Source: Desulfonatronovibrio magnus (lineage in GTDB: Bacteria > Desulfobacterota > Desulfovibrionia > Desulfovibrionales > Desulfonatronovibrionaceae). From it: 58,600 bases of DNA. The stretch spans positions 1 to 58,600 of the forward strand of contig NZ_JYNP01000038.1 of assembly GCF_000934755.1 (NCBI RefSeq), given 5' to 3'. The position numbers and the translations under genes were made by a program. Positions 40,936 to 58,460 of the stretch are shown piece after piece (position 1 is the stretch's first letter; each line of letters starts with the position of its first letter). Below the pieces are notes generated by a model. It was given only the letters and a program-made list of their open reading frames with translations. It ran no database searches and was not told the origin of the DNA.

Positions 40936-42092
40936 GGATTTCCTCCTAGTATATTATCCAAGAATATTTTCATTTTATTCTGAAGAAAGTTCATTCGCAC
41001 TTCAATCTTGTCTTTGAATGATAGCAGTTGCAGAAAGCTTTCTGATATTCTTTGCTGGATATCCTTTGAAGGAACAGGAATCTTAATTTGGGAAAAAGAG
41101 CTTTTATTCACAATCGGCACGGCAGTAGTGGCTCTATTAGCCTCAAGCTGTCGTCCAGACTCGATAAGGCACATAAATAGATACATTGAATCCATATCTT
41201 TAGGAACAACAGCATTGATCTGCTGATTGAATGTCATCGACACATTGCACAGAGCAACCTTGCCAATTGTTGATCCAATGCAGACAACCAAAACTGATCC
41301 AGCTGGAACAATTACTGAATGCTTAACTCCGTATTCAGTAAGCGCCCTTTGGCATGTTATTAGGTTTGGCTCAATAAAATCCATGTCTCCTGGGGTTGCA
41401 AAAGGGATACTATTTCCCCAACATCCTTTTTTAGAAGAGCTTGGCGTTCTTCCTGTAAAGATAGTTGCAACCTCTGAAAGACTCTTAATATTTGATTTAT
41501 TATGTTTAAACATCTCAATTTTTGAATGAGCAAAAGAACGAACTAATTTCCAAGCATCAATTAGCAGACTATTCATAGATCCATACAAATCATAACTTGC
41601 CCCCAAAACCTCCGCAATCCTTCTCTGCTCATCCAGCGGCGGCAGGGCGAATTCATACCACGCAAGATCAGAAAAATTTACGTAAGGATTTACTGAACCT
41701 TTAGACTGCTTGATGGAATGGTCATGAAAGGACTCGGTCTGCATAATGAAAGGCAATAGTTCAGGCAGCAGTACGCTTGGGTCTTTAGGCTCTAAAACAA
41801 ACGTCGTATTAGCAGTAATCCCTTCAAAATCAGCCAGCGCAACCTTGCGCAAATATGTTCTCCGTGAGCCGTAAAGCACATGCCCCGGTTTAAAGCGCAT
41901 ATGAAAAGCCGGACCAAGGTATCCATCCCCAATGATCCCCCAACGCCTTATTTTCAAGTCGTCAGTATCCATATGCTCACCAGCTACATAGCACTCTATA
42001 TCTGTTTCCTCCGGGTTTACACGGTCACGAACCTGCCTGACTACATCCCCAAAAGCAACCTTAGTCCACCCCTTCTTCAGCTTATCCGGCAT
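40932..42092 (-). CDS. hsdS: Type I restriction enzyme specificity subunit HsdS
   Basis: The 386-residue protein has two target recognition domains (about 1-170 and 185-360). Each ends in the helical segment typical of HsdS (PPLDEQRRIAEVLGA and PSKDIQQRISESFLQLL). The recognised sequence cannot be read from the protein. The ATG at 42092 lies inside the hsdM end (overlap 11 bp) with GAGGAGACTGATA upstream, so translation is coupled. Its second half reads AT-rich compared with the first, suggesting domain exchange. Confidence 0.92.
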   Translation of the reverse strand: MPDKLKKGWTKVAFGDVVRQVRDRVNPEETDIECYVAGEHMDTDDLKIRRWGIIGDGYLGPAFHMRFKPGHVLYGSRRTYLRKVALADFEGITANTTFVLEPKDPSVLLPELLPFIMQTESFHDHSIKQSKGSVNPYVNFSDLAWYEFALPPLDEQRRIAEVLGASYDLYGSMNSLLIDAWKLVRSFAHSKIEMFKHNKSNIKSLSEVATIFTGRTPSSSKKGCWGNSIPFATPGDMDFIEPNLITCQRALTEYGVKHSVIVPAGSVLVVCIGSTIGKVALCNVSMTFNQQINAVVPKDMDSMYLFMCLIESGRQLEANRATTAVPIVNKSSFSQIKIPVPSKDIQQRISESFLQLLSFKDKIEVRMNFLQNKMKIFLDNILGGNP

Positions 42093-43593
42093 TATCAGTC
42101 TCCTCATCAACAATGCCGTCCAGCATATCCACAAGCTCATCCATTTGCTTCCAGAAATCCCGGCCCTCTGCTTCAAATTTTGTCCAGGCTTTTTTCAGAT
42201 CCATGTCATTTCCATCATTGTTGTTATTTATCACCGGCCTTACATAACGGGGGATGGACAGGTTGGCGTCTTTGGAAAGTATGTCTTCCACAGAAGCAAC
42301 CCTTGCAAAGCCCGGTTCATCCTCAAAAGACTGGTAAGCATTGAGAATGCGCTCCTGGTGTTCATCTTTCAGAAAACTCTGGGCCCGTTCCCGGGCCACT
42401 TCCTTGACAGCATCAATAAACAGGACTTTTCCCTGACGCTCCTTTGGCTTACTGGTGCGGCAGACCACAACACAGGCTTCCATGGGTGAATTGTAAAAAA
42501 GATTAGGGCCAAGACCCAATACGCACTCCAGAAGATCATGCTCCACCAGTTTGCGCCTCATATCAACTTCTTCATTGCGGAAAAGTATTCCGTGGGGAAA
42601 AAGGATGGCGCAGCGCCCAGTCTTAGAGTCCAGGCTTCTCAGGATATGCTGGAAAAAAGCATAATCAGCCCGGCCCTGGGGCGGGGTTCCCAGAAAATTT
42701 CTGCCCCAGACATCATTTTGCCATGCTTCCCGGTTCCATTTCTTGATGGAATATGGAGGATTGGCCAGAACCACATCAAAGGTGCGCAGCCGGTCTTCAC
42801 GGGTAAAAGCTGGAGTGCTTAAGGTATTGCCGGCCACGATATGGAAGTCCTCAACCCCGTGCAGCACCAGATTCATGCGGGCAATGGCTGCGGTAATATG
42901 AATCAGTTCCTGACCATAAAGCCCCAGGGTCCGGACATCACCTCTCCTGCGCTTTACTTCAGACAAACAGGAAATAAGCATCCCGCCTGTTCCAACAGTG
43001 GGGTCATACACTGATTCGCCGGATTGTGGCTCCAGCATCCGGGTCATGAGGTGAACCAAAGTCCGGTTGGTGTAGAATTCCTGGGCTGTATGACCGCTGT
43101 CATCAGCAAATTGTTTGATGAGATATTCATAGGCATTGCCCAGTTCATCCTCTGGCACTGCGCTCAAGCTCAAGGTATGTCTGGAAAAATGCTCAATAAG
43201 GTTTTTCAGGGTGGAATCAGGCAGATGGGCCTTGTCAGTCCAGGGAGCGTTTCCAAACACCCCGGCCAGACGCTCAGGATTGGCAGCCTCTATGCTCCTG
43301 AAGGCATTGAGCAGTGTCCGGCCCACATCCTGAGAAACAGAGCGAACATCTGACCAGTGAGCTCCAGCAGGAATGGTAAAACGATCATCAGCAGTCGCCT
43401 TGGCAAACTCTGAATCATGGGTTTCAGTTAGACTGACATTGTATTCCTCATCCCACACATCAGAGAGGCGCTTGAAAAAAAGAAGCGGAAAAATATACTG
43501 CTTGTAATCCCCTGCATCCACCAATCCCCTGAGGAGCTTGGCCGCTCCCCAGAGATAGGATTCAAGTTCACGCTGGGAGAGATGGGTGCTCAA
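42082..43593 (-). CDS. hsdM: Type I restriction enzyme methylase HsdM, first paralogue
   Basis: The 503-residue adenine-N6 methyltransferase has an HsdM_N helical domain (YKQYIFPLLFFKRLSDVWDE), SAM motif DPTVGTGGML (near 201) and catalytic NPPY (near 279, VLANPPYSIKKWN). A TTG start at 43593 overlaps the upstream TGA (TTGA) and has AGGAGG at good distance; an in-frame GTG three codons earlier overlaps that binding site. A second, different HsdM is immediately upstream. Confidence 0.9.
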   Translation of the reverse strand: MSTHLSQRELESYLWGAAKLLRGLVDAGDYKQYIFPLLFFKRLSDVWDEEYNVSLTETHDSEFAKATADDRFTIPAGAHWSDVRSVSQDVGRTLLNAFRSIEAANPERLAGVFGNAPWTDKAHLPDSTLKNLIEHFSRHTLSLSAVPEDELGNAYEYLIKQFADDSGHTAQEFYTNRTLVHLMTRMLEPQSGESVYDPTVGTGGMLISCLSEVKRRRGDVRTLGLYGQELIHITAAIARMNLVLHGVEDFHIVAGNTLSTPAFTREDRLRTFDVVLANPPYSIKKWNREAWQNDVWGRNFLGTPPQGRADYAFFQHILRSLDSKTGRCAILFPHGILFRNEEVDMRRKLVEHDLLECVLGLGPNLFYNSPMEACVVVCRTSKPKERQGKVLFIDAVKEVARERAQSFLKDEHQERILNAYQSFEDEPGFARVASVEDILSKDANLSIPRYVRPVINNNNDGNDMDLKKAWTKFEAEGRDFWKQMDELVDMLDGIVDEETDNAG

Positions 43594-45089
43594 TTCAACC
43601 ACCCTCCTTTATTCAATACTTCGCGCAGTTTATCCTCAGCTTCTCTGGCCCTGGTCAGGGCATCTTTGAAAGCAGCGACAGCCTCAGGCAAAGGCGGGAT
43701 ATCTTCGCCAATGGGCGGCAGAACATACCTGGAAATATTCAGGGTCCAGTCCTCAGTCTTAATCTCATCCAAGGGAACAACCTTGGCCCTGTCCTTAACA
43801 TCTTCAAAAGATTTAACCCATGATACAATCTCATTCACATGTTCAGAATCGAGAAAGTTCTGAGCCCGGCCTTTGCGCATCAGGCTGGAGGCATCCACTA
43901 CCAAAACTTTACCTTTACGCTCGCTTGGCTTGTTGCGCCGAATAATGAGTACGGCAGGAGCCAGTCCTGTACCGTAAAATATATTGGGAGCCAGACCGAT
44001 TACCGCCTCAACCAGATCCTGCCTAAGAATCTTCTGTCTTATCTTACCTTCTGCTCCTTTGCGAAACAGTGCGCCCTGGGGCAAGACAACTGCCATGCGG
44101 CCTGTTGGAGTGGCCATGGAAGCAACCATGTGCTGCACCCAGGCAAAATCCCCGTAACTTTTGGGAGGCAGGCCGTATAAAGCTCTGCCCCATGGATCTG
44201 ACTCCCAGACCTCAATTCCCCATTCTTTGAGGGAGAATGGCGGATTTGCAATTACGCAGTCAAATGTGGCTAAGCTGCCCGTGCTGGAGTCAGTAAAGGC
44301 GGGGTTGCGAAGAGTGTCTTCCCTGACAATCTTGAAATCTTCAATACCGTGCAGGACAAGGTTCATGCGGGCAATGGAGGCTGTAGTCAGGTTTTTCTCC
44401 TGTCCATAAATTTTGCCAAAAAACCTTCTGGGATCGCCGCCATTCTGCTGAACATGCTCAATGGCCCCCAAAAGCATGCCCCCAGTACCGCAGGCCGGAT
44501 CATAAATACTTTCACCTTCCCTGGGATCAAGGATATTGACCATCATGCGCACAACACTGCGAGGTGTATAAAACTCGCCCGCTTTTTTGCGCCTGGTTAT
44601 ATCTGCGAACTTGCCAATGAGGTATTCGTAGGCATCACCAAGGATATCTGAACTGACTGCCTGATTGCCAAGAGAAACCTGGGAAAGGCCTTCAATTAGA
44701 TCCTTGAGAATTTCATCAGACAAAACTTCACGGTTCCCCCAGTCAGGAGAGCCAAATACCCGGTACAAGGTTTCAGGATTGGCCAGCTCTATTTCGCGCA
44801 TGGCATGAGAAAGGGCCGCCCCGACATTGACAGGCGTCTCGCGAACATCCCGCCAGTGGCAACCTTCTGGTATGGTAAAACGGTGGATCTCAGGAAAATC
44901 AACCGGCGCAACCTCGCCAAACATCTCTGCTGCCTGGGCTGTTTCTTCATCCCAGACATCACAGATACGCTTGAAAAATAAAAGGGGCAGGATATAGGCT
45001 TTCCAGTCTGTGCGGTCCACTGCGCTTCCACGCAAAACCTCAGCACAATTCCAAAGGTGTGATTTCAGGGATTGAAGGTCAAGAGGCAC
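43590..45089 (-). CDS. hsdM: Type I restriction enzyme methylase HsdM, second paralogue
   Basis: The 499-residue protein is a full methyltransferase with HsdM_N (WKAYILPLLFFKRICDVWDE), DPACGTGGML (near 200) and NPPF (near 283, VIANPPFSLKEWG). It clearly differs in sequence from the next gene (HsdM 1), though both carry complete catalytic motifs. A GTG start lies behind AAGGAACAATA. It is the first gene of the four-gene hsd operon. Two distinct M subunits with one S subunit is unusual. Confidence 0.9.
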   Translation of the reverse strand: MPLDLQSLKSHLWNCAEVLRGSAVDRTDWKAYILPLLFFKRICDVWDEETAQAAEMFGEVAPVDFPEIHRFTIPEGCHWRDVRETPVNVGAALSHAMREIELANPETLYRVFGSPDWGNREVLSDEILKDLIEGLSQVSLGNQAVSSDILGDAYEYLIGKFADITRRKKAGEFYTPRSVVRMMVNILDPREGESIYDPACGTGGMLLGAIEHVQQNGGDPRRFFGKIYGQEKNLTTASIARMNLVLHGIEDFKIVREDTLRNPAFTDSSTGSLATFDCVIANPPFSLKEWGIEVWESDPWGRALYGLPPKSYGDFAWVQHMVASMATPTGRMAVVLPQGALFRKGAEGKIRQKILRQDLVEAVIGLAPNIFYGTGLAPAVLIIRRNKPSERKGKVLVVDASSLMRKGRAQNFLDSEHVNEIVSWVKSFEDVKDRAKVVPLDEIKTEDWTLNISRYVLPPIGEDIPPLPEAVAAFKDALTRAREAEDKLREVLNKGGWLN

Positions 45090-45584: not shown

Positions 45585-46586
45585 CTATATGTTGATTCCC
45601 AATAATTCACAGGCTCTATTTCCATCTAAAGGTGCTAATCTAAAGTTGCTGATATCTGCAACACCCTTTATGGCACTTATTGTTGATTCTACAACTTTTG
45701 TTGTAGCAATAAGATTTAATACATCTATTTGATTGGCAGCATTTTGTCTTATTATCTCCAAATGTGCAACAAGCTTTTGAGCTTCTTTAGCTCTTTCATT
45801 AAGTTTCGAAATTTCCTGACCAATTTTTTTCCATCTCTCTTTGACTTTGGTCCGTGCTTCTTTTCTATAGTTTATATCATCCAGCGTATTCAATCTTAGA
45901 GACTCTGGGGCCTCATCAAGAGATTTTTCTAATTCTAAATCTTTTCTTTCACCTTGCTCAAGGTCTTCAAAAACCTCTTTTCTAATTGTTTTAAAATCAT
46001 CTATACCCTGCAAACCAAACTTATTTAAAAAATTTGCAGCAAAATTTGTGAGCTCATATACAAGCACAGCATTCTTAAAATACAACTTCAACTGATTATT
46101 GCTTTCATTTGCAGCAGAAGCATCGTTTATTTGATCCAAAATATCTTCATTAATTTGTTTAAAAACATCAATAACCACTGTAAGTGTTTGAAAAGATCCG
46201 CTTAGCTTTTTTTGTGCTAAAATAAGATTTTCTATTCTATTTTTGTCAAACTTGCTTAAGTCTAACTTAGCAATTTTATCATCAATTGACTTATACTGAT
46301 CTTCCTCGATATAAAAAGCTGTTGCGTAAATAATTTTTTCTACATTTGCACTATAATCTAACACCTTATTTTTTATTTCACTATTTATATGCTCACTTGC
46401 AACAAGGTTATCACTTAATATTTCAATATTTTTAAGCTCAGTCTTTTTTTGTGTATCTGTCAAATAATCAATTTGAGAGATCAACTCATTTTTAATCAAT
46501 TCCGTTCCTTGTAACAAAAACTTTTCTCTAATAGATTTATTATCATTACTATCTTGATTAATTAAAATACTGTTATCATTGTTCAT
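45585..46586 (-). CDS. Unrecognised helical/coiled-coil protein
   Basis: The 333-residue acidic protein is predicted mostly helical, with heptad-like stretches (about 30-110 and 225-290, e.g. ARTKVKERWKKIGQEISKLN). It has no signal peptide, no membrane helix and no nucleotide-binding motif. AAAGGAATTTAGAA precedes the ATG. It lies between the DUF262 gene and the hsd operon. I do not recognise the family; a scaffolding or partner protein is plausible. AT-rich like its right-hand neighbours. Confidence 0.55.
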   Translation of the reverse strand: MNNDNSILINQDSNDNKSIREKFLLQGTELIKNELISQIDYLTDTQKKTELKNIEILSDNLVASEHINSEIKNKVLDYSANVEKIIYATAFYIEEDQYKSIDDKIAKLDLSKFDKNRIENLILAQKKLSGSFQTLTVVIDVFKQINEDILDQINDASAANESNNQLKLYFKNAVLVYELTNFAANFLNKFGLQGIDDFKTIRKEVFEDLEQGERKDLELEKSLDEAPESLRLNTLDDINYRKEARTKVKERWKKIGQEISKLNERAKEAQKLVAHLEIIRQNAANQIDVLNLIATTKVVESTISAIKGVADISNFRLAPLDGNRACELLGINI

Positions 46587-46929: not shown

Positions 46930-48726
46930 TTAAAGCCTGAAATAGAAATCTTTGATTTTCTGGGCCATGAGCTTTCTTCTTTCCTTTAAAAAATCTTCAT
47001 AATGATCAATGGTCATCTTATCCATATCCTCTGGGATACAGTGAAGCTTGAAATTAACTGCCAGCTGATCTCTGTCGGTAATGGCTCCATAGGCTGCGTT
47101 ACCATTCGAACACTGCTCCAGGAGGCATGAAAAGTACCTTGATGGTTCCTGCGCACCAATGGAAATGTTGATTTCACTTTGCATCATAACATAATTGGCG
47201 ATCTGATTGTATTTTCCTTTGGTTAGTCCATGTTTTTTCAGGTACTTTTTTGGGAAGAGATGGTGAACATCCCCTCTGTGGGTAATCAGGTCACGCACGG
47301 TTATATCTCTGGACAAAAAGCCTTTGTCGTTGTCAAAGACTTGGGATGCCAGATAAACTTTGAAATAGGGACTGCTGGCAACAGAAGTTCTCATCTGCTG
47401 GGGAAGGCCTGACTTCCAGAATGCGTCGGATAGTTCTGCCTCTTCTATTGAGTCCAGTGTGTTGCGAACACCGTTTTCATGGATCAGTTTGACATCATAG
47501 TCCATAGCAGATTCAGGAGAGGATGAATATCGCCCTGTAAGTACAGACATCACAAACCATCTGCGGACACACGATTCTATTTCTGGAGCAGGACGCTGGT
47601 TGCTGCGCATTACAAGATATATGGCATAAGCCATATTCAGGGTATTTTGAGAGCGAATAAGCGTGCTGTCTACAAATCCGGCTGAACGGATAATCATGAG
47701 AAACCTTTTGAAATGGTTCTCATGCATGAAATTGAAAATCCCTTTTTCAAGAGATGCAAAGGAGCTTTGAGCTATTGCCTCTTCAAAGTCTCTTGTCTCA
47801 AAATTTCTTCCAGACAAAAGAGCTACAAGATCTTCCAAGCGTCCTCTTCTGAACTCTGAGATAAAAGCAACTCTTAGTGCGTCTGTATAGGATGGCTCAT
47901 AAAGGTCATCATTTTCATTCCGAAGCCAAGCCATCTTTCGAAAATAATCGGTACTGCTAAAATCCTTGTCCACTTGAGCGATTTGGTCATAAAATTCAGG
48001 CGCAGCTAATAAATGACAAAAATAATCAATACATTTCCTGAGATTATTACCGCCATATATTTCATTTGCAGCTATCTTGGACATAGCAAAGTCCGCTTGA
48101 CTTAGAACCACCCCAGACGAGTTGATACGAATAAATATTTCTGTGACTGTTTCAATATCCAAATCTGAATTAAGTTCGATGAGACCAATATGGTTGTTCA
48201 CAATGCCTTTTAGAAGTGAAAGGCTCTCGTAAACATCATCCTGTTTGTTTCCTGGATTTCTTTCACAATAATCATTCACCAGTTGCAACATTTTGGCATT
48301 GGGAGATAACACCTCGGAAATATCATGAATCCATTGCTTGTCCTTTCCAATGGCAGGATTGAATACTTCAAAACGCTTCTCTGCTGGATGGAAAGATATC
48401 TTGATCCTTGTTTTCCTGTAATTCTTATCAACAACCTGCATTCCCAAAATCGCTGCCATAAGAGCAGTAACCCGCTGCTGACCGTCAATTAAGATTCTTT
48501 TTCCATCAGATGTGCTTCCATCTTTCAGCCTGACTGCAGGATTCCTCCAGGCGATAAGATAGCCCACAGGATACCCTGAATAAAGGGAATCAATAAATTC
48601 GCGGACTTTTGTAGCAGACCAGACAAAAGGACGCTGTATCTCAGGGATGGCTATGTCTTTTGATTCTACCCAGGTAAGCAGGGTTTGGATGGTGTATTGG
48701 TTTACTGAGTACTTTTGGATGGTCAA
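46930..48726 (-). CDS. DUF262/HNH protein (GmrSD-like, defence-associated)
   Basis: The 598-residue protein starts with a DUF262 (ParB/Srx-like) domain: [34 protein letters not shown], and DGQQR (81-85), the nucleotide-hydrolysis motif of GmrS-like proteins. The C-terminus near residue 505 has [15 protein letters not shown] with a downstream [14 protein letters not shown], an HNH/DUF1524-type nuclease motif. GmrSD enzymes cut modified phage DNA; related proteins take part in BREX and Ssp systems. A TTG at 48726 is chosen because CGGAGCAAAACT precedes it and family members begin at IQKYSVNQ; the ATG at 48765 lacks a binding site. It follows the membrane/coiled-coil gene. Confidence 0.8.
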
Positions 48727-48778
48727 AGTTTTGCTCCGGAAAATTGTGGTTGCAAACAGAATCAAAAAGGGAGTTCAA

Positions 48779-49651
48779 CTATATTGAATATTCGAGCATT
48801 ATCCTGTTTTCTTCAGAATTCACTATCGATTTTATTTCAGGCATTTTCTTTTGTAGTACTATGGAGTTTTCATTATGTTCACCAGCAATGATTGCCCTGT
48901 ACTCTCTGTTAGCCCACTCTTTGTATTTGTTAATTATCATCTCATATTTCTTTTGTGATTCCTTTTTTATAAAGTCGCCAAATTCGATTTTTTCAAGCTG
49001 ATAATAACCTTGAGACTCAATAAAAAAGGCCTTGGGTACAAGGTTAAGTGTAACGTTTATATAATCAATGACAATTTCTTTGTGTTCTGGAGAAAAATTA
49101 TCAGATATATGTATAATGTTATCCAAAAAAAATAAATATTGATTCCTTAAATCTGAAAGTGAAGAAAGCTTTATTATTAAAATATCATTATTATCAACAT
49201 CATTATTTGAATGATATCTCATTGCAATTAATTCTCGAGTAGATTCTACTGCCCCAAAGTATGCTGTCGTTTTTTCCAAATAATAAACTAAATTTTGTGA
49301 TAAAAACTCTTGTTTAACAACTTTTTGCAAGTTATTTATTGACTTTTGTATCTTATCCAATTTTTTACATATATACATAGTAGATATAACTACAGCACCA
49401 ATAATTGCTACAGAAGATAAGCCAATAGATCCTGCAATTAAAGCTTGTCCACCTTGAATTTGTTTGGCAATACTAATCAAGTCTTGCCCATTCCCAACTG
49501 AAATCTTTTGGAAAGGAATATGTTTAACAATCTTATAATTATCTAGCACATCCCTTGCTACACCATTCCTGATAATTACTTCTCCTGTTTTTATCTTCTT
49601 TATCAAATCATTTGATAAAGAAGACCAGTCAATTACATATAAGTCATCCAT
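48779..49651 (-). CDS. Membrane-anchored coiled-coil protein coupled to YaaW
   Basis: The 290-residue protein carries one strong transmembrane helix (about residues 72-95, IAGSIGLSSVAIIGAVVIST) followed by a coiled-coil (KKLDKIQKSINNLQKVVKQE) and a helical C-terminus. The ATG at 49651 shares one base with the upstream stop (TAATG), behind AGAAGGG. No enzyme motif is seen. Proteins of this shape can act as membrane partners or effectors. The family is not recognised. Confidence 0.6.
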   Translation of the reverse strand: MDDLYVIDWSSLSNDLIKKIKTGEVIIRNGVARDVLDNYKIVKHIPFQKISVGNGQDLISIAKQIQGGQALIAGSIGLSSVAIIGAVVISTMYICKKLDKIQKSINNLQKVVKQEFLSQNLVYYLEKTTAYFGAVESTRELIAMRYHSNNDVDNNDILIIKLSSLSDLRNQYLFFLDNIIHISDNFSPEHKEIVIDYINVTLNLVPKAFFIESQGYYQLEKIEFGDFIKKESQKKYEMIINKYKEWANREYRAIIAGEHNENSIVLQKKMPEIKSIVNSEENRIMLEYSI

Positions 49652-50391
49652 TATATGAACCCTTCTTTCTTTCCTAAAAGTTTGTAGCGCATATAACATA
49701 TATGCAATGTGGCAGGCATAATTACTCGGTAAGCAGGGCCACTTACCAGGGGTAATGCTAATAAAGCTGTGATAGCCCAACCGATAGGCCCGGCAAACAT
49801 GGCAACACCTCTTACTAGGGCAGCATTTGCTCCTAAGGCCAAACCTCTACCCAAGATTGCTCTTGCTACAGCATTTGCAACAATTACTGCCAACTTGTAT
49901 GCAAGAAAGCCATTTAACTTAATTGCCGTCTGCAAGGCTGCCATAATGACAGGTGGAGCTAATATTTGAACATCTAAGTTAAAATCCTTAACAAATTCTG
50001 CTCGTTGCCTTTCATCCATTTCTTCCAGTGACTTTTCTACTACCTTCATTAAAAGTTCATTTTCTATCTCTAAAGTTTTAGAATTATCATTACATTTCAA
50101 GCTAAATTTGCTGCATACTCGTGATAAAATTTTTCTGTATAAGACACCTTTACCTCTGAAAAGATTTACAAAAGTATCTCCTCCAAAATGTTGCACTTCG
50201 GCTGCAATCAAGTCCCATATTTCACTATAGTCAGTGCAAGACTTAAACCGTTGTTCTTGAGTCAAGCTTTCTGTAAAACGTTGATTTCCACTTTTGGTCT
50301 TAGTCAAAATATCTACAAGCACCGATAGATCATCATGTTCGCAGTACTGCAGAAAATCTAGATCAGGATCAATTCTATATCGTAACCCCAT
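49651..50391 (-). CDS. YaaW-family protein (DUF3944/UPF0174)
   Basis: The 246-residue protein has the YaaW hallmarks from end to end: DPDLDFLQYCEHDDLSVLVD, then a segment matching 'WxLIAAEVQHFGGDxxxNxxRGxGxxYRxIL' (about 59-88), and a C-terminal hydrophobic region ending SGPAYRVIMPATLHICYMR. The hydrophobic, alanine/glycine-rich part (about 145-225) could insert into membrane. E. coli YaaW has no established function. AGGAGTTTT precedes the ATG. It lies 53 bp after the third dynamin gene and is translationally coupled to the next gene. Confidence 0.85.
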   Translation of the reverse strand: MGLRYRIDPDLDFLQYCEHDDLSVLVDILTKTKSGNQRFTESLTQEQRFKSCTDYSEIWDLIAAEVQHFGGDTFVNLFRGKGVLYRKILSRVCSKFSLKCNDNSKTLEIENELLMKVVEKSLEEMDERQRAEFVKDFNLDVQILAPPVIMAALQTAIKLNGFLAYKLAVIVANAVARAILGRGLALGANAALVRGVAMFAGPIGWAITALLALPLVSGPAYRVIMPATLHICYMRYKLLGKKEGFI

Positions 50392-50443
50392 AAAACTCCT
50401 CCATCTTATAGCTTATCACTGTTTGTAGTTACAGATACTCATA

Positions 50444-51937
50444 TTAATTCAGCGATAATAACGTATTTCGCAAATTTACAAGATGAATTTTATCTTCAAC
50501 ACTAATATCACCAGTCAATGAATGTATTAAAAGAATAATAAGATTATTTTGGACCTTATGCAGCTTAGAAACGAGGCTACTATTTAATTTTTTACTATAT
50601 TGAATACAGTATTCCTGCAAAGACTCTGCATAGACAAGCATCTTTTCGCTGATATGTTCAGAAACAGAATTCAAGTTGCGTTCTGTTATATCTTCACTAT
50701 AATCTTTAAATCTATTGACAATATCTTCGGCGTAAGAATCACCCAAAAAATATTGATCTGACACTTCCTCCAGTACGTTGACTATGCTAAAATGATTAAG
50801 ATTTATATCGAGGGTAAATGATGGGATAAATTCATCATCTGAGAACGTGCTGAATATTTTAATTCTATCTATTGTTTTTTTTGATTCATAATTGGCGAAC
50901 TCGTACAACGATTTACATCTTTTTGTTATAGCATCATGCACTCTATCTTGATACTTTATCACTATAGGCCTTGCTTTATCATCCTTGCTGGAAAAGGGAT
51001 TGATTGAGTCAATGAAGGAAATGTTGTTTTTAAGATCTGCTTCGAGCAGCTGAGTAATTGTGCCAATATCAACTTTTGCATTATAGCGTGTTTTGTCAAA
51101 GTAAAAATCATCCACTTTAAGAACAAGCTCTTCAATTTCAGACAAGCTAAACTTCTGAAAACTTAGCATGAACACAGTAGTGAGTAATACTTTTTTCATA
51201 AAAAATTCAAGCACATCCAGTGCAGGCGAGCTTTCTTTGATTTTGCCAACCAGGGACTTCAAGGCGCTAAAGGTAAATATTGCTACAAGTCGGTCACTGA
51301 GATCCTGTTCTTGAAAAAGCTTATTAACCTGTTTTACTTGCTTATTTATTTCAGATATTAACACCTTAGAGTCAGTACGCTCATTACACAATGCATCAAT
51401 CTTATTCAAAATGACTATTATTTTTGCGTCCGAACCCTTCAGAGCCTGTAGAAACTCTAAGTCGTCCTTCTTAAATCCACTGCTTGTATCAACTACCCAG
51501 AACAAAACATCTATGGCGGTTAACAGATGACTCAGATCATCATGAGAAAAGGTCTGACCAAATCCGGGCACATCAAGAAGGTTCATATAATTCAGATAGT
51601 CATAATCTGCTCGAACCATTTCAATATTCAAGCTGGGATCAAGATCAGGACAATGATCTCTATATAAGGCAGTCACTTTCTGGGTTGTTTCACCAAGTCC
51701 CATTTTAAACTGATCTTTTGTTCCCAGAAGAGCATTTAAAAAAGTAGACTTGCCAGTTGAGTTTTCACCAAAAACCGCAACACTGGGCTTGAATTCATCA
51801 AAGCTATGTCCGCCCATAAACTGATCCAGTTGCTGGCTCATATCTTGAGCGGCCCTGCTTAACTGTCCAAATTGAATGGTGTTTGGCTCACTCATAGCAG
51901 ACTGGATGAAATCAATTATATTCCTGAAGAAGCTCAT
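50444..51937 (-). CDS. Dynamin-like GTPase 3
   Basis: The 497-residue large GTPase has G1 GENSTGKST (57-65), a G2 threonine pair in GLGETTQKV, G3 DVPGFG (from Asp122) and G4 NKID (178-181). The rest is helical (stalk-like), ending near the GTPase-distal tip without a clear transmembrane helix. ATG at 51937 follows AGGGG; the TTG just upstream is ignored. It overlaps the second dynamin gene by 26 bp. Dynamin-like proteins remodel or tether membranes; this one is most diverged at its C-terminus from its two neighbours. Confidence 0.85.
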   Translation of the reverse strand: MSFFRNIIDFIQSAMSEPNTIQFGQLSRAAQDMSQQLDQFMGGHSFDEFKPSVAVFGENSTGKSTFLNALLGTKDQFKMGLGETTQKVTALYRDHCPDLDPSLNIEMVRADYDYLNYMNLLDVPGFGQTFSHDDLSHLLTAIDVLFWVVDTSSGFKKDDLEFLQALKGSDAKIIVILNKIDALCNERTDSKVLISEINKQVKQVNKLFQEQDLSDRLVAIFTFSALKSLVGKIKESSPALDVLEFFMKKVLLTTVFMLSFQKFSLSEIEELVLKVDDFYFDKTRYNAKVDIGTITQLLEADLKNNISFIDSINPFSSKDDKARPIVIKYQDRVHDAITKRCKSLYEFANYESKKTIDRIKIFSTFSDDEFIPSFTLDINLNHFSIVNVLEEVSDQYFLGDSYAEDIVNRFKDYSEDITERNLNSVSEHISEKMLVYAESLQEYCIQYSKKLNSSLVSKLHKVQNNLIILLIHSLTGDISVEDKIHLVNLRNTLLSLN

Positions 51938-53519
51938 CAATCACACCCCTAATCTCTTGTTGATATTTTTTATAGAAATCAGCTTTTTCCTTTTTCGCCT
52001 GAATTTCCAGTGAACCCTGCTCTTTGAGTTTTTCCAGGCTTACAAGCTCAGCACGTATCTTACCAAGATCAGCATGTTCATATTCCTGCATGAGTATCAG
52101 CTTATGATCTCGCAATGCATCTGTTATTATTGATTCGCATTTTGACAGGATTATTGAAGTCTGCTCTTCCACATTTGACTTAATAAACCAGCCACCAAAA
52201 GCATCGACAAGCTTTCGGACATTGTCTTGAACAACAGTAGCCAAAGGTCCTGCTACTTTACCGTACTTGGGGACGTGTGATGCTATCAGGGGAATATATG
52301 AAATTATATCATCAATATTTCTCAGGGCAGACAGCAGTAAATATCTGAATTGATCGAAATGAGGCCTGAAATCATCAGTTGAAATTGAACTAACCTCAAT
52401 ATACTTGGAAATATCATCAATGGCAGCCTTAACCAGTCCAGGCACTTCTGTTTCAAGCTTATCAAGCATAAACTCTGTATTGGGAACATCTGTAACGCAC
52501 CTGTTAATTTCCTCAACAAGTTCTTGAAATCTCGAAGCTACCTTTGCTTGAATACTTTGAATTGACTCGTTCAGCTCCTTTTCGAGACGTTCCTTTTTTT
52601 CAATTAAACCTTTAAGCTCTATATCGTGCGCCTGTATTTTCCTTTCCAGCTCTTCGCTGCTTAAGCTTTCGTTTTCTATTAAAGCGTTAATTTGAGCATC
52701 TGCAAGCTTGGAGATATTTCTGAAAGACCTTTGAACCCTTTCAGAAAAGACCCTTTTTTTATCTAATGCATTAATGTATGTATTGAGACTTTTTTCAAAA
52801 AATTCAGCCTTGCTCTTGGCTATCCTCTCCGAATCACCTTCCAGAATGCCAGCCAAAAACTTAAGGGCTGAAACAGGAAAAACATCGTATTGATTCATTA
52901 TTTCTCTGGGCAGGATGCTGTCCAGACTCTGATTTTCGTCCAATGAGTCAATCTTATTCAACACTATAAAAATCTTGTCCTTATGAGATAGTACTACCTT
53001 GCTCTGGAAAAACAGCTCTTCTTCTTTGGTCATTCCTTTGGAAGAATCCAGAACAAAGACAACAGCGTCTGCAAGAGGGACATAGCTCAAAGACCTTCCT
53101 TCCCGTTGACCGGAAATATCGTCAATACCTGGAGAATCAATAAACCTTATCCCCCTGTGCTTAAAGTCCTTGAGTTCAATACTGAGATGGGTGACATTAT
53201 CATCTTTACCAGCGTCAATAATTCTCTGCTGTGTCAAATTGTAGTTGGAAAAAGAACCATCATTGGAATGAACTGTCAGGATATCCTCAGGTCCATATTT
53301 GATAGTTGTAATCAGGGATGTTGTTGCCCCAAGGCCTGCGGGTAAAAGATTTTTTTTGATTAGACAGTTAAGCAGCGTAGATTTGCCATTGGCCACTGTT
53401 CCACAAAATATTATTTCAATATCTGTTTTTTTTGATAGATGCTTAATGTTATCTAAAAAATACTGAATGTCATCGTTGTTCAGGATCTCCAGCTTATTTA
53501 CCAAGTGCATAATGCTCAT
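51912..53519 (-). CDS. Dynamin-like GTPase 2
   Basis: The 535-residue large GTPase has G1 GTVANGKST (40-48), G2 TTSLIT, G3 DSPGIDD (from Asp128) and G4 NKID (188-191). A long coiled-coil stalk (about 285-345, EELERKIQAHDIELKGLIEK) and a second helical bundle follow. A short hydrophobic stretch (about 410-425) could be a membrane-contact paddle. It overlaps gene 1 by 26 bp and gene 3 by 26 bp, indicating translational coupling. GGGGGAAATA precedes the ATG. Confidence 0.88.
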   Translation of the reverse strand: MSIMHLVNKLEILNNDDIQYFLDNIKHLSKKTDIEIIFCGTVANGKSTLLNCLIKKNLLPAGLGATTSLITTIKYGPEDILTVHSNDGSFSNYNLTQQRIIDAGKDDNVTHLSIELKDFKHRGIRFIDSPGIDDISGQREGRSLSYVPLADAVVFVLDSSKGMTKEEELFFQSKVVLSHKDKIFIVLNKIDSLDENQSLDSILPREIMNQYDVFPVSALKFLAGILEGDSERIAKSKAEFFEKSLNTYINALDKKRVFSERVQRSFRNISKLADAQINALIENESLSSEELERKIQAHDIELKGLIEKKERLEKELNESIQSIQAKVASRFQELVEEINRCVTDVPNTEFMLDKLETEVPGLVKAAIDDISKYIEVSSISTDDFRPHFDQFRYLLLSALRNIDDIISYIPLIASHVPKYGKVAGPLATVVQDNVRKLVDAFGGWFIKSNVEEQTSIILSKCESIITDALRDHKLILMQEYEHADLGKIRAELVSLEKLKEQGSLEIQAKKEKADFYKKYQQEIRGVIDELLQEYN

Positions 53520-55506
53520 TATTTCCCCCAGTCTGAATTTTTGAAAGTCTTTCCTGAAAAATATTGATCTCGTCCATCTGCCTTTTCAACTTCTCTATCT
53601 GCTTCTCTTTTTCTTCAGGTTTTTCAATGGTATCCAAAATTGTTTTAAGTCTTATCTGAGCAGCATGAGATGCCTGCATTATTGCTGTTTTGATTAGATT
53701 CAACTGGTCGAGAATACTGGTCATTCTCTTTTCCAAATCTTCTCTCATACCAGATGCAATCTTATCAGAAACTTCATCAGCGATCTTTTTATTGGAATCG
53801 GTAGAAGATCCTAACAACGTTAAAACAATAGTTAAAACTGCGCCAACAATCAGGCCAATACCAGGAATCATAAAAGCCAGCCTTGTAGCTATAACCTGGG
53901 CTGCTACTCCTCCAATCGCCCCGCCAGCAACCCCTACAAGCAAATCTTTCGCAACCCCTAAATCATCAGCATAAGATGAATTTGGATTGAATTCATACTC
54001 TCCAGACAAGTTTTTCTGAAAAATATCTAAACGTTCGATATTATCTATATTGTAACCTTCAAATTCATTAATTTTATCGTTAATCAGATCGATAACAGTG
54101 TTAATTTTGTTTTGGCTTTCAATGTAAGATGAAAAAATTGAATTTATATAGTTTGAAACGCTGCTGTTCATGTCTGATTTGGAATCATTTATTGCTCCTA
54201 CAATACACTTCTCATATTTTCCTTTTAAACCAAAAATTATGGCTTTATCAAAAAAACCAATATCACTATCCAATCTATTCTTAATTTTATCCTTAAGAAT
54301 AGATTTTATAGTTTCAACTATTCCATGAATGCTATATGTAGTTGTTGACAAGCTCTTGTTAATATCATGCAAACTGCTTATTTTATGATTAAAAAATGAT
54401 TTCAATTCTTCATTTCTTTGAACTAAATCATTTTTAATTTTTTCTATTTGCTTAAGGTTATTTTCACTTTCCTTTTTTCCAATACTCAAAACATTTGCAA
54501 TTTGATCCATACAGCTGTTTGCAGACTTTATTCTTGTACACAATATTTCGCTCTTATTTTTAATTATATGATCCCAGAAATCATCTTGAAACTCCTTAAA
54601 TCCAGATTCAATAATCTTTTCCTTGTTGTTCAATATATAACCACTAAGCGCTTTCAATGATGATAAATGATAGTGCCTGATTTCATCCGGATTAATTTTA
54701 GCACTTTCTGCAACATTGATAATTGCTTTTTGGGTAACATCATGTATCTGTTTCTCCACCTCTTCATTGGACATTACCACTCGCATGTCATCATTTATTA
54801 CTGTATCCATCTTGTTAAAGACCACAAATCTCTTGGAAGATTCTATCCTGTTGATTACTTGTCGCACAAACCTATCTTCGCCTTTCTTCATCCCAGAATG
54901 AATATCAAGTAACATGATTGTCCCATCACTCTCTTCAACAGCCCTTTCTATGATATCAAACACAATACCCTCATCTAATGAACCGAATCCTGGGGTATCG
55001 TAAACTGTAATGCCCTTCTTAAGCATAGGGTGGCGGACGCCTACATTCACAACATTTTTATTATATTTACCTGTTTTATCTTCTATATTTCTTCTTTCAG
55101 ACTGATTTAATTCCACAAGGCATCTTTTTAGTTCATCTATGCTTTCACATTCAATAGCTTTGCTTCCATCTTCATAGAAATATTTGTCACTGTAATTAAT
55201 CTTAAAAAGTCTTGCGGTAACAGCACCAACCCCACTATGAAGGACATCACCACCGAATATCAGGGCATTGAGAAAAGTTGACTTACCACTTGACACTTCT
55301 GCCACAATTGAAATTGTAATATTTGGATTTCCAAACTTTTTAGAGAGCCCCTGTAGCTTATGTTTACAATTACTTTCGCTGAGTGGACTTACGACTTGCT
55401 CAATATCGCTGGAAAGAATATCATTCACAATATCAAGAGCTTTGATACATTTTTGCTCATAATTTTTAGACTGACTATTATAATAGTCCAAGCTATCAAT
55501 CGACAT
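53494..55506 (-). CDS. Dynamin-like GTPase 1 with C-terminal membrane hairpin
   Basis: The 670-residue large GTPase is first of three in the operon. G1 is AEVSSGKST (69-77), G2 threonine in GAVTARL, G3 DTPGFG (from Asp170) and G4 NKMD (231-234). After helical stalk regions a hydrophobic hairpin (about 548-592: VGVAGGAIGGVAAQVIATRL and FMIPGIGLIVGAVLTIVLTL) should insert in membrane, as in bacterial dynamin-like proteins. AAAGGAG precedes the ATG. It is the largest and probably the membrane-anchoring member. Confidence 0.9.
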   Translation of the reverse strand: MSIDSLDYYNSQSKNYEQKCIKALDIVNDILSSDIEQVVSPLSESNCKHKLQGLSKKFGNPNITISIVAEVSSGKSTFLNALIFGGDVLHSGVGAVTARLFKINYSDKYFYEDGSKAIECESIDELKRCLVELNQSERRNIEDKTGKYNKNVVNVGVRHPMLKKGITVYDTPGFGSLDEGIVFDIIERAVEESDGTIMLLDIHSGMKKGEDRFVRQVINRIESSKRFVVFNKMDTVINDDMRVVMSNEEVEKQIHDVTQKAIINVAESAKINPDEIRHYHLSSLKALSGYILNNKEKIIESGFKEFQDDFWDHIIKNKSEILCTRIKSANSCMDQIANVLSIGKKESENNLKQIEKIKNDLVQRNEELKSFFNHKISSLHDINKSLSTTTYSIHGIVETIKSILKDKIKNRLDSDIGFFDKAIIFGLKGKYEKCIVGAINDSKSDMNSSVSNYINSIFSSYIESQNKINTVIDLINDKINEFEGYNIDNIERLDIFQKNLSGEYEFNPNSSYADDLGVAKDLLVGVAGGAIGGVAAQVIATRLAFMIPGIGLIVGAVLTIVLTLLGSSTDSNKKIADEVSDKIASGMREDLEKRMTSILDQLNLIKTAIMQASHAAQIRLKTILDTIEKPEEKEKQIEKLKRQMDEINIFQERLSKIQTGGNNEHYALGK

Positions 55507-55657: not shown

Positions 55658-57799
55658 CTATAGACTTTCATCCTTGAACCCCAAAAACTTAGAAGGCTCC
55701 CCATAACTGGTAACCAGAAGTGTCTTCCTTGCTCTGGTTGCAGCTACATAGAGCAGTGACCGCTCCATGACCTCGTTGTCTCGGGCAATAAACTCATCGC
55801 TGGTCGCAAAATGCTCACTGTCATAAGGCACAATGGTCTTGTTCACCGAGGCTATGATCATATGATCAAATTCCAAACCCTTGACCCTGTGCATGGTGGC
55901 CAATCGGAGCCCTTTCTTTTCTGAGCTGATGGCATCACCTGGTAAAATCTTGATGACATCAATATTTAAATCTTCGAGTCTTTCCTTGTATTGTTCCAGT
56001 ATTTTGTTGGTACGAACAGCAAGGCAGACACAGCTCAAGTCTTCACCTGCCTGTTCAAGTGCCTGGATATGCTTCAGGATATGAGTAATTTCATCTTCAA
56101 AGGTGGGCAGGTTATGGACTGCCGGCTGGAGCCCATGCATCATGGACAAGTACCCATTACTTTCTTTCTGTGCTTCACCCAGGCTCTCACCGGGGATGCT
56201 GCTAATGATACTTTCCGCCCAGATCCGGTTTTCTTCAGTTGTCCGGTAATTTATCCTTAGCTTTTTTCCCCTGCCGCGAATATTAATCCCGCATCTACCA
56301 AGCACTGCTTTACGGCGATATATTCTCTGGTGAGCATCTCCGGCTATGAACAGATCATTTGCACTTTCTGGAACTAATTGCCTGAGAAGTCTGAAGGCCA
56401 GAGGCCCCATGTCTTGAGCCTCATCAACTATTGCAGCACTGTACTTTACCAGGCCGGGATTGTTTTCAAGCATGACCAGGGCGTCATGCATGGCATCATC
56501 TGGTTCTTTGAGCATGTTGTCATTCAAAAGCAGCCTGTACTCCTCAAAAACAGCCCATAGAGCCACTCGCTCTTTGCGGCTTATCCTTATGCCTCGTCCG
56601 GTCCTGTCTGTATCTAAGTATTGCTGCAGGGTAGTAATACCTTCAGACTGAATAAGGTGTTCCCACTCCTCACGAAAAAATGATTTATCAAATCTGATTG
56701 ATAAATCACCTGAGGCACGCTTCAGAGCTTTTTCCCAGAAAACGAGGTGTCTGCCATCATAGGAAATATCGAATTCATATCCGTTCTGACGCAGAAAGAG
56801 ATTGACCCACCTATCTAAGTTGACCACTTCAATCTTGCTAAAACCATCTGCTGAACAAATCTTTTCCAGATTAAATTCAAGATCTGCTGCCAGATTTCTG
56901 GTGAATGTGGTGAAAAGTATCTTATCGCTGTTTTGATTAAATATATTTTCTGCCAGCCACTTGGCCCGGTGCAGGGCAGCAACGGTTTTGCCTGTTCCGG
57001 CTCCTCCCATTGCCCGAACCGGTCCGTTCCAGGAACGCTCCACCAGCATTCTCTGGGCAGGGTGAAGGAATACTCTCCATTTTTCCAGGGGAGCCTCAAG
57101 CATGGCCATCAACTCCTTATCATCTGCAACTACTCGGAAACGGCGCTTTGAATCAGGATGTTCCAGGGCTTGAGCAATGTCCTGCCGGTCTATATTGGAA
57201 GGCTGATCATAATTAATAAGCTCGTTGAAAACCTCTTCCACAGAAAACCCTTCAGCAAGAAAATAAAGCGCCTCGTATGCTTCATGGGGCAAACCTGACG
57301 ACATTGCCTCCAGCTGCTTCATTGTTCTAATATTTCTGATTTTGGGAAGGAGCTCCTCGGGAACTCCCATTTTTTTCAGATGTCGATCATGTACGCCATC
57401 AAAAAGGCAAGGCTCACTTAAGTCAAAGGTATCTTCTTGTGGTTCGGCTTCAAAAACGCTTTCATATATCTGAATACTTCCTGTTTCGGGATTGATTGTG
57501 CACTTTTTATTTCTGGCCCAGCTGTATGCGTCATCATGCTGATCAACCCACAACAAAACATAAACATTTCCTTTTGCAGGTTTGAGCACTATTCCTCTGT
57601 AAGCATCATCAATCCGCACTGAACGGTAGTTGGAATCAGCAGCCACATTAATTTTTTCATAGTTGATACCCGGAAGCATTGGATTACTCTGGAATTTCTG
57701 AACAAAATTCGCCACCCGTGACTGTTTCTTGGGGGGTATCTTAGAAAAAGAATCAAGGAAATCACTGGAAATGGCTACCTTGATATGGGGATGAGTCAT
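55658..57799 (-). CDS. UvrD-type helicase with N-terminal RelE/ParE-like domain
   Basis: The 713-residue superfamily 1 helicase has an N-terminal RelE/ParE-like toxin fold (about 1-95; KIPPKKQSRVANFVQKF, SVRIDDAYRGIV and VLLWVDQHDDAYSWARN). Helicase motifs follow: GGAGTGKT (265-272), VDEAQDMG (near 460), INYRTTEENR, and ATMHRVKGLEFDHMIIASVN, with VAATRARKTLLVTS last. Such fusions occur in defence loci. AAGGACAGATC precedes the ATG. It lies 48 bp after the LRAT gene and 151 bp before the dynamins. Confidence 0.88.
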   Translation of the reverse strand: MTHPHIKVAISSDFLDSFSKIPPKKQSRVANFVQKFQSNPMLPGINYEKINVAADSNYRSVRIDDAYRGIVLKPAKGNVYVLLWVDQHDDAYSWARNKKCTINPETGSIQIYESVFEAEPQEDTFDLSEPCLFDGVHDRHLKKMGVPEELLPKIRNIRTMKQLEAMSSGLPHEAYEALYFLAEGFSVEEVFNELINYDQPSNIDRQDIAQALEHPDSKRRFRVVADDKELMAMLEAPLEKWRVFLHPAQRMLVERSWNGPVRAMGGAGTGKTVAALHRAKWLAENIFNQNSDKILFTTFTRNLAADLEFNLEKICSADGFSKIEVVNLDRWVNLFLRQNGYEFDISYDGRHLVFWEKALKRASGDLSIRFDKSFFREEWEHLIQSEGITTLQQYLDTDRTGRGIRISRKERVALWAVFEEYRLLLNDNMLKEPDDAMHDALVMLENNPGLVKYSAAIVDEAQDMGPLAFRLLRQLVPESANDLFIAGDAHQRIYRRKAVLGRCGINIRGRGKKLRINYRTTEENRIWAESIISSIPGESLGEAQKESNGYLSMMHGLQPAVHNLPTFEDEITHILKHIQALEQAGEDLSCVCLAVRTNKILEQYKERLEDLNIDVIKILPGDAISSEKKGLRLATMHRVKGLEFDHMIIASVNKTIVPYDSEHFATSDEFIARDNEVMERSLLYVAATRARKTLLVTSYGEPSKFLGFKDESL

Positions 57800-57845
57800 G
57801 ATCTGTCCTTGCGGGTTAGAAAGAAATCATTCGGCTACACCGGGT

Positions 57846-58460
57846 TCAGCGACTCGGAAACTTGTTTTTATGGTCAACAATCAATTCAAGCGCTTCATAA
57901 AGACTGTCCTGCTTGATATCGTCCTGACTGGAATGTTTTGTCCTTTCAGGATTGCTGATCACCTTAATTTTCTTGCGGTATTTACTCGGAACACTTTCAA
58001 TCTCAGGTAGTTGCTGGCACTTACGCATGGTTTTATAGATTTCCACTCCGATCTTTGCCACAGCTTTGACCGATGAAGATGAACTTTCCGATGAAATGTA
58101 GGTTTGCTCAAAAATATCCACCACAGCATCAGCAGCCCTGACAACCTGCTCGCTATTTTTTTTGCCGGTCTTGCACCAGGTTGCAAAGTGCTCGCAGTTG
58201 TTGAAAAATAGATTATAGCTGTCTTCACCCAGGCGACTGAAGGCTCTTTCAAGTGTCTTGTCCGCTGAGTCATGCTTGCTGTAGTAACGGATCATTAAGT
58301 TACCGCCGGCAGTAAACTCGTGGATGTCAGTCCTTTTGACCGCTGCGTTGCGCTTTTGACCGGGTTCGCCGGTATAATGAATTACAGTCCCATCCCCGCA
58401 ATCTATGCCATGATGTGAGTACAATGCTCTTTGCACGAAAATGTGATCGCCTTTGGCCAT
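57846..58460 (-). CDS. LRAT/NlpC-P60-like domain protein
   Basis: The 204-residue protein opens with GDHIFVQRALYSHHGIDCGD, the LRAT-like 'GD.I....YxHHGI' motif. It has His17 and the catalytic Cys in NNCEHFATW (Cys89), the family's NCEHF box. LRAT-family proteins are thiol acyltransferases or hydrolases; bacterial members often appear in conflict systems. The C-terminal half is helical and basic. GGGGAGTAATCA precedes the ATG, 12 bp after the stop of the WYL gene. Confidence 0.85.
   Translation of the reverse strand: MAKGDHIFVQRALYSHHGIDCGDGTVIHYTGEPGQKRNAAVKRTDIHEFTAGGNLMIRYYSKHDSADKTLERAFSRLGEDSYNLFFNNCEHFATWCKTGKKNSEQVVRAADAVVDIFEQTYISSESSSSSVKAVAKIGVEIYKTMRKCQQLPEIESVPSKYRKKIKVISNPERTKHSSQDDIKQDSLYEALELIVDHKNKFPSR

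Follow-up and report, generated by a model that had tools for sequence, protein, structure and literature searches.

What do three large dynamin-type GTPases do beside a YaaW-family gene and a gene for a membrane coiled-coil protein? Five such genes lie in tandem at positions 48779-55506 of a 58,600-nucleotide stretch of Desulfonatronovibrio magnus DNA (contig NZ_JYNP01000038.1; here, the window), and an original prediction, made from the letters alone, had proposed that they form one new membrane-remodelling machine. We found that the last two genes almost certainly encode JukA and JukB, to judge by their matches, a known system against jumbo phages. What may be new here is a three-GTPase module joined to this system, the Juk pair itself being already known. 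The reading we favour, which we put at close to an even chance but slightly below it, is that membrane GTPases have been added as an upstream module to a Juk locus, the trio plausibly acting with JukA on a vesicle made by the phage. All five open reading frames (ORFs) are on the minus strand and were confirmed at the coordinates claimed for them. In order of transcription, each followed by the segments predicted within it, they are:

53494..55506, minus strand: GTPase 1, dynamin-like, with a hairpin resembling transmembrane (TM) segments near its C-terminus; 670 amino acids (aa); Dynamin_N 63 bits; match to BDLP 2j68; PADLOC LeoBC E 4.9e-17
53797..53946, minus strand: TM-like hydrophobic segments of GTPase 1 (residues 521-570), a candidate membrane paddle by presumed function; Kyte-Doolittle scan
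51912..53519, minus strand: GTPase 2, dynamin-like, without a TM segment; 535 aa; Dynamin_N 71.6 bits; BDLP G domain E 1.5e-14
50444..51937, minus strand: GTPase 3, more weakly dynamin-like; 497 aa from the ATG; Dynamin_N 42.9 bits, MMR_HSR1 44.3 bits
49651..50391, minus strand: JukA (YaaW family, DUF3944); 246 aa; PADLOC PDLC04113 E 1.9e-85; DUF3944 (Pfam) 45 bits
48779..49651, minus strand: JukB, predicted membrane pore effector; 290 aa from the ATG at 49651; PADLOC PDLC04115 E 2.9e-67; PDB 9jht E 3.8e-38
49358..49447, minus strand: TM-like segment of JukB (residues 69-98); Kyte-Doolittle scan

The match of the YaaW product to the PADLOC JukA model extends over residues 1-241 of 246. The product of the next gene, for which the PADLOC JukB match was obtained with a 333-aa version as the query, also aligns over residues 4-286 with the solved JukB structure 9jht (PDB sequence search). 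The two near-full-length homologues are adjacent and in the same order as in Juk, with jukB directly downstream of jukA; the window differs from Juk in having three GTPases directly upstream of jukA. The pair had been taken for a partner of unknown kind; since it matches JukA and JukB, that partner is a known defence system. As described in the review PMC13282480, phiKZ-like phages make a lipid vesicle at injection; JukA detects an early phage protein there and recruits JukB, which forms tetrameric pores on this early vesicle.

The three GTPases have different G1 boxes (AEVSSGKST, GTVANGKST and GENSTGKST for GTPases 1 to 3), as originally noted, as well as the G3 motifs DTPG, DSPG and DVPG, respectively, and an NKxD (G4) motif each. 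The description of all three as dynamin-like holds in that each exceeds the Pfam cut-off for Dynamin_N (27 bits), but needs qualifying for GTPase 3, the least dynamin-like of them, whose best Pfam match is MMR_HSR1. Judged by these motifs and scores, GTPases 1 and 2 very probably belong to the dynamin superfamily, and GTPase 3 probably does. The alignment of GTPase 1 with BDLP (2j68) spans residues 64-648 (E 3.8e-9), and GTPase 2 matches the BDLP G domain, while the PDB sequence matches of GTPase 3 include septin, Era, translation factors and interferon-inducible GTPases. For GTPases 1 and 3, the AlphaFold models, built from shallow alignments, had a mean predicted local distance difference test (pLDDT) score of 59.8 and 58.0, respectively, and were sound in the G domain only; both contain long helices, which have low pLDDT. 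Foldseek ranked bacterial dynamins, mitofusins and IniA first for both models, with interferon-inducible GTPases also among the fold matches of GTPase 3; given where pLDDT is good, these matches bear mainly on the G domain. The trio resembles BDLP, CjDLP1/2 (5owv), IniA and mitofusins in its G domain, which in the models of GTPases 1 and 3 is followed by what may be long helices, but shares low identity with proteins of this type, and the GTPase 1 model is weak outside the G domain. GTPase 1 is alone in the trio in having the TM-like hairpin (Kyte-Doolittle), in agreement with its original proposal as the predicted membrane anchor. With the Dynamin_N scores and the near-full-length JukA and JukB matches, the array is not a product of chance.

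The compact same-strand arrangement of membrane-type GTPases in a defence island was borne out, down to most of its junctions. The stop of GTPase 1 and the ATG of GTPase 2 overlap by 26 base pairs (bp; 53494-53519), and GTPases 2 and 3 overlap by another 26 bp (51912-51937), if translation of GTPase 3 begins with the ATG at 51937, which is preceded by an AGGGG stretch, and not with the TTG at 51940. The YaaW gene, now jukA, closely follows GTPase 3, although the gap is 52 bp and not 53; it contains GGAGGAG, resembling a ribosome-binding site. The jukA stop and the jukB ATG have one base in common, at 49651, as predicted. The nearest gene upstream of GTPase 1 ends at 55658, and the 151-bp gap between them could accommodate a promoter. 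A promoter scan returned 29 sites against a shuffle mean of 32.5, and a terminator scan was likewise at chance level, so that an internal promoter is neither shown nor excluded.

The original prediction had likened the trio to the Leo proteins of enterotoxigenic Escherichia coli (ETEC), taken there as three dynamins. This does not hold for the Leo proteins, LeoC and LeoB being described as a single dynamin split in two (PMC4159319). The matches of the trio to the PADLOC LeoA and LeoBC models are weak (E 3.9e-6 to 4.9e-17, 24-60 bits), the best being 60.3 bits to LeoBC (E 4.9e-17; GTPase 1, query without its first Met) and 52.1 bits to LeoA. In comparison, the true LeoBC/LeoA pairs at two of the other loci described below (L164 and L105) score about 300-460 bits; the trio is therefore not classed as Eleos. 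Indeed, we rejected the three as members, as neither a family-level LeoBC/LeoA match nor a DLP_helical domain was found: at E 0.1 the latter matched none of the three GTPases, whereas it was found in the LeoA proteins of L164 and L105. What the trio shares with Eleos and the 'Dynamins' system (LeoBC plus LeoA), both annotated as defence systems (PMC11811056), is the presence of adjacent large dynamin-superfamily GTPases in defence islands; the window differs in having three full GTPases in place of two. DynA of Bacillus subtilis, which confers phage resistance alone (PMC8844932), is also dynamin-like, and GTPase 2 weakly matches its model (41.4 bits versus 1600 needed), but DynA is a fusion of two dynamins (PMC4159319). 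Dynamin genes also lie on an island carried by a jumbo phage; in that study, in which part of the island could not be deleted, they were reported to show no activity against the phages used (PMC12595487). This source mentions both Juk and dynamins, Juk solely in its reference list, and the literature searched, which excluded the primary Juk paper (it may list such neighbours), contained no link between Juk or YaaW and dynamins or GTPases.

Do GTPases occur beside JukA in other bacteria? A ten-sequence JukA alignment was scanned against 84,980 species genomes, giving 227 relatives; we took the best 80 by similarity, many of these loci being cut by contig ends. A GTPase lies within 10 kb of JukA at 11 of the 80, ten of which were found with a hidden Markov model (HMM) and one (L099) by inspection. 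Direct same-strand adjacency was seen at five. In a Bacilli metagenome-assembled genome (MAG; L164), JukA is followed after 28 bp by LeoBC and LeoA (E 1.6e-89 and 7.3e-139), and in Anaerobacillus (L099), after 34 bp, by two GTPases of the DUF697/septin type. In Oxalobacteraceae (L103), Stenotrophomonas (L107) and Parapusillimonas (L166) a GTPase ends 4, 10 and 12 bp, respectively, upstream of JukA; the three belong to one family with IIGP/AIG1 matches (IIGP 34, 27.5 and 42.3 bits). JukB was not detected at any of these five loci. Elsewhere, JukA is followed by LeoBC and LeoA after one small ORF in Azohydromonas (L105; E 8.6e-103 and 1.8e-104), and the top-scoring JukA relative, from a Campylobacterales MAG (L088; 49% identity), by three consecutive Dynamin_N GTPases. 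A GTPase is divergent from JukA, 239 bp away, at L095; a helix-turn-helix (HTH) dynamin is on the opposite strand, 2.8 kb away, at L090; and a GTPase lies 6.0-6.7 kb from JukA at L136 and L148. These counts contain non-independent rows, L136 and L148 both being Selenomonas and L103, L107 and L166 having a common GTPase family. On plasmids, one of the seven JukA records read (63 in all) has a GTPase: Acinetobacter plasmid pMsp11 encodes, on the strand opposite JukA, an HTH-dynamin homologous to that at L090, and the HTH-dynamins near JukA in the Acinetobacter plasmid and in Clostridium tyrobutyricum are homologous. JukA was also found in 3 of 340 genomes of another class; all three were already in the set, making this a replicate without power. 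The check on co-occurrence thus gave a divided answer: the full set was not found at any other locus read, but JukA stands beside varied GTPases in unrelated bacteria.

We considered a one-to-one correspondence between the L088 trio and that of the window. Within the L088 trio, the best BLAST partners do pair one to one, but the best match of GTPase 2 overall is at L136, and a G-domain tree does not group the pairs, and we rejected the correspondence as evidence; since the branches of the tree are very long, it is neither shown nor excluded.

We then compared JukA loci with other defence genes. For 50 of the 80 genomes, with one JukA locus each, strong Dynamin_N matches (at least 45 bits, 44 in total) lay within 10 kb of 4 of 50 JukA loci, compared with 0 of 113 N6_Mtase genes (of 117 matches, four second pieces of split matches being dropped) and 1 of 69 GmrSD_N genes (p 0.008); random placement would give 0.18 JukA loci. 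The sole GmrSD_N positive lies beside JukA, at L090. The four JukA positives were placed by contig coordinates; the other 46 loci were scored negative, the HMM having detected no GTPase of this kind in the stretches covered, and L105 and small GTPases, which score under 45 bits for Dynamin_N, do not enter the count. A second control consisted of 60 windows drawn from the first 50 genomes, with a single window for each genome and gene (40 N6_Mtase and 20 GmrSD_N); four were dropped because they hold JukA. With the GTPase HMM, built from 36 proteins including the window's three GTPases and a second copy of GTPase 2, 10 of 80 JukA loci were positive compared with 2 of 56 control windows (p 0.06), or 7 of 50 when only the genomes shared with the controls are counted (p 0.06). 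GTPases of at least 450 aa were found at 7 of 80 and 0 of 56, respectively (p 0.02). Direct adjacency was 5 of 80 compared with 0 of 56 (p 0.07), the former not being a blind count, since L099 was missed by the HMM and added by inspection, and the latter being based on the coordinates of two HMM matches. A motif scan gave 7 of 80 and 1 of 56 (p 0.09); it passed over L047, L053 and L084, at which ORF picking had not recovered JukA, and the HMM covered these. The tests overlap, their p values are uncorrected and the rows are not phylogenetically independent. GTPases thus appear commoner near JukA than near other defence genes, with moderate strength, p ranging from 0.008 to 0.09 by test.

The complete set proved harder to find again. 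No second locus combining a GTPase trio with JukA and JukB was found in what was read, which amounted to 80 loci in genomes, 17 in viral contigs, 7 on plasmids and 19 regions of the class. The class survey found JukA in 19 of 348 genomes, the window's own included, and covered 19 regions from the 18 other JukA-bearing genomes. The nearest approach is L040, from genome G014 of the same order, where two other GTPases precede JukA and a JukA fragment lies in between; the gene after JukA is weakly JukB-like (E 2.2e-5 over 54 residues; a direct BLAST to the window JukB gave no match). In G014 an intact JukA copy stands next to the fragment, and another genome of the order, G240 (L037:9477-10997), has tandem JukA copies, one matched with an internal stop. 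A search of the 296 other genomes of the order gave only short G-domain matches to GTPase 3, in three of them, and nothing of full length, and exact 8-residue pattern scans of viral and genome contigs, which are insensitive and of limited reach, gave no match. For GTPase 2, a search of 395 genomes from the phylum turned up generic dynamins, the best with 29% identity across residues 5-315, and one of plasmids gave 10 records at low identity; E. coli DNA gave no match.

On the reading we favour, the window's JukA would, by homology, detect the vesicle of phiKZ-like phages through an early phage protein and recruit pore-forming JukB. As bacterial dynamin genes mostly come in pairs within operons (PMC6104087), the three GTPases, which would be co-expressed with JukAB, may form a hetero-oligomeric assembly of the dynamin type, with GTPase 1 inserted in the membrane through its hairpin and GTPases 2 and 3 as soluble partners. 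This assembly would act on the phage vesicle, or on the inner membrane as the source of the vesicle, by tethering, deforming or breaking it, and JukA is a plausible recruiter of the GTPases. That the trio and JukAB act on the same target at all we consider a tentative proposition, a little short of evenly balanced.

The nearest alternative is that two independent anti-phage systems stand side by side: JukAB, with vesicle-forming jumbo phages as its target, and a dynamin trio resembling Eleos that acts alone, for example by limiting lysis as DynA does. Sealing membrane damage is another conceivable action of such a trio. To our knowledge, DynA has no Juk partner, and its sufficiency for phage resistance fits a stand-alone role for the trio. 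We regard this alternative as nearly as likely as the favoured reading, against which a number of observations weigh. JukB follows JukA at L084, L089 (31% identical to the window JukB), L142 and L184, and, with a weaker match, at L170 and L181, and such GTPases were not found in the stretches read. LeoA-like genes occur in 10 of 394 genomes of another order, and none of 11 LeoA regions, which cover all 12 LeoA places, has JukA (up to 24% is still compatible with this count; some regions are cut by contig ends and one is just 3.4 kb). The absence of GTPases from these JukAB loci and of JukA from the LeoA regions agrees with independent systems, as does the defence-island context, in which unrelated systems sit as neighbours. 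The 52-bp gap, with its good ribosome site, would allow jukAB to be expressed separately. GTPases of the L107 type on plasmids adjoin other genes (3 read of 24 records); at L088, JukA and the trio are separated by two small ORFs, about 2 kb; among 17 JukA loci on viral contigs a GTPase was found at one, on the opposite strand and 7.8 kb off; and the JukA-linked GTPases fall into several groups, not one clade, in the G-domain tree with its very long branches. The failure to find the full set again and the fact that most enrichment tests miss 0.05 belong here too. On the other hand, independent systems do not readily account for the greater frequency of large GTPases at JukA loci than at other defence genes, moderate as the statistics are, or for several unrelated kinds of GTPase being directly adjacent to JukA. 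With JukAB standing without GTPases elsewhere, GTPase 3 having no full-length relative in the genomes of the order searched and JukA absent from the 11 LeoA regions, the five genes as one obligate machine are not supported. The prospect that homologues would rarely occur together was partly realized, the GTPase-free JukAB loci being L084, L089, L142 and L184, but a looser linkage between GTPases and Juk remains, and is real enough to test. The original interpretation as a whole is partly supported.

It is very unlikely that the trio is a Leo-type operon for vesicle secretion or membrane maintenance, unrelated to phage and placed here by accident. The leo genes do influence membrane vesicle release in ETEC (PMC4159319); however, the trio sits within a defence island and GTPase 3 lacks a full-length relative in the other 296 genomes searched of its order, and a mobile accessory gene set therefore fits better than maintenance. 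A bolder form of the favoured reading, overlapping with it, takes its cue from the immunity-related GTPases (IRG) and guanylate-binding proteins (GBP) of animals, which are directed at membrane compartments containing pathogens: JukA would mark the vesicle, and GTPases would coat and rupture it, sometimes replacing JukB. The GTPases of L103, L107 and L166 exceed the Pfam IIGP cut-off (24 bits), GTPase 3 matches interferon-inducible GTPases in the PDB by sequence and fold, and JukB was not detected at L099, L103, L107, L164 and L166. However, the likeness of these GTPases to IRG and GBP is confined to the G domain, and they match other GTPase models as well or better, making it an analogy in which homologous recruitment is not supported; the arguments against coupling of JukA and GTPases apply as well. 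We consider this form improbable.

The window is a defence island, with type I restriction-modification, DUF262 and UvrD-like helicase genes. The island neighbours at 40932-45089 and 55658-58460 comprise the restriction-modification-like genes (43590-45089 is HsdM by eye), the UvrD-like helicase, whose N-terminus carries a long extension, and a protein with an LRAT domain. A 333-aa coiled-coil-like ORF without a convincing family match (45585-46586) lies between the hsdM-like and DUF262 genes. The DUF262/GmrSD_N gene (46930-48765) is on the same strand as jukB, its closest possible start by eye, the TTG at 48726, being 52 bp past the jukB stop. At a Paraburkholderia locus (L084:10804-14248), JukAB is followed by two DUF262-like genes (N-termini, by eye), and DUF262 may be a further Juk neighbour.

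Some JukA loci have neighbours of other kinds. A family of 519-577 aa proteins lies beside or near JukA at six loci read (L127, 10592-12325; L039, L115, L117, L119 and L169), including Campylobacter jejuni and a Raoultella plasmid; the L127 member is PADLOC PDC-M40B, and the family is a candidate for a recurrent Juk effector. At five enterobacterial loci (L104, L108, L109, L124 and L158), a gene for 233-237 aa with an HTH-like N-terminus by eye lies 25-105 bp after JukA, consistent with the transcriptional regulators named in the review PMC13282480. JukA was found in 2 of 50,697 phage records, and JukA homologues are present on E. coli and Klebsiella plasmid records with phage genes (L087 and L170). 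It may be that Juk serves phages or satellites in fending off competitors.

Pairing of JukA with membrane GTPases seems to have arisen on more than one occasion, and none of these pairings looks obligatory. One possible extension, which we think rather unlikely, is that JukA is a general adaptor for vesicle recognition that has independently recruited Eleos pairs, IIGP/AIG1-like GTPases and dynamin trios as effectors. If so, the lipid compartment of a giant phage would be destroyed by a GTPase-driven attack on its membrane, much as immunity GTPases act against pathogen vacuoles, and the window would combine pore (JukB) and GTPase effectors in one locus. We know of no membrane target for most bacterial dynamins of defence islands. 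The early vesicle of nucleus-forming jumbo phages is an intracellular lipid compartment made during infection, with JukA as its known sensor, and the recurrent JukA-GTPase neighbourhood thus offers a testable substrate and recruiter for defence dynamins, for which L164, L099, L103/L107/L166, L088 and this window are suitable loci.

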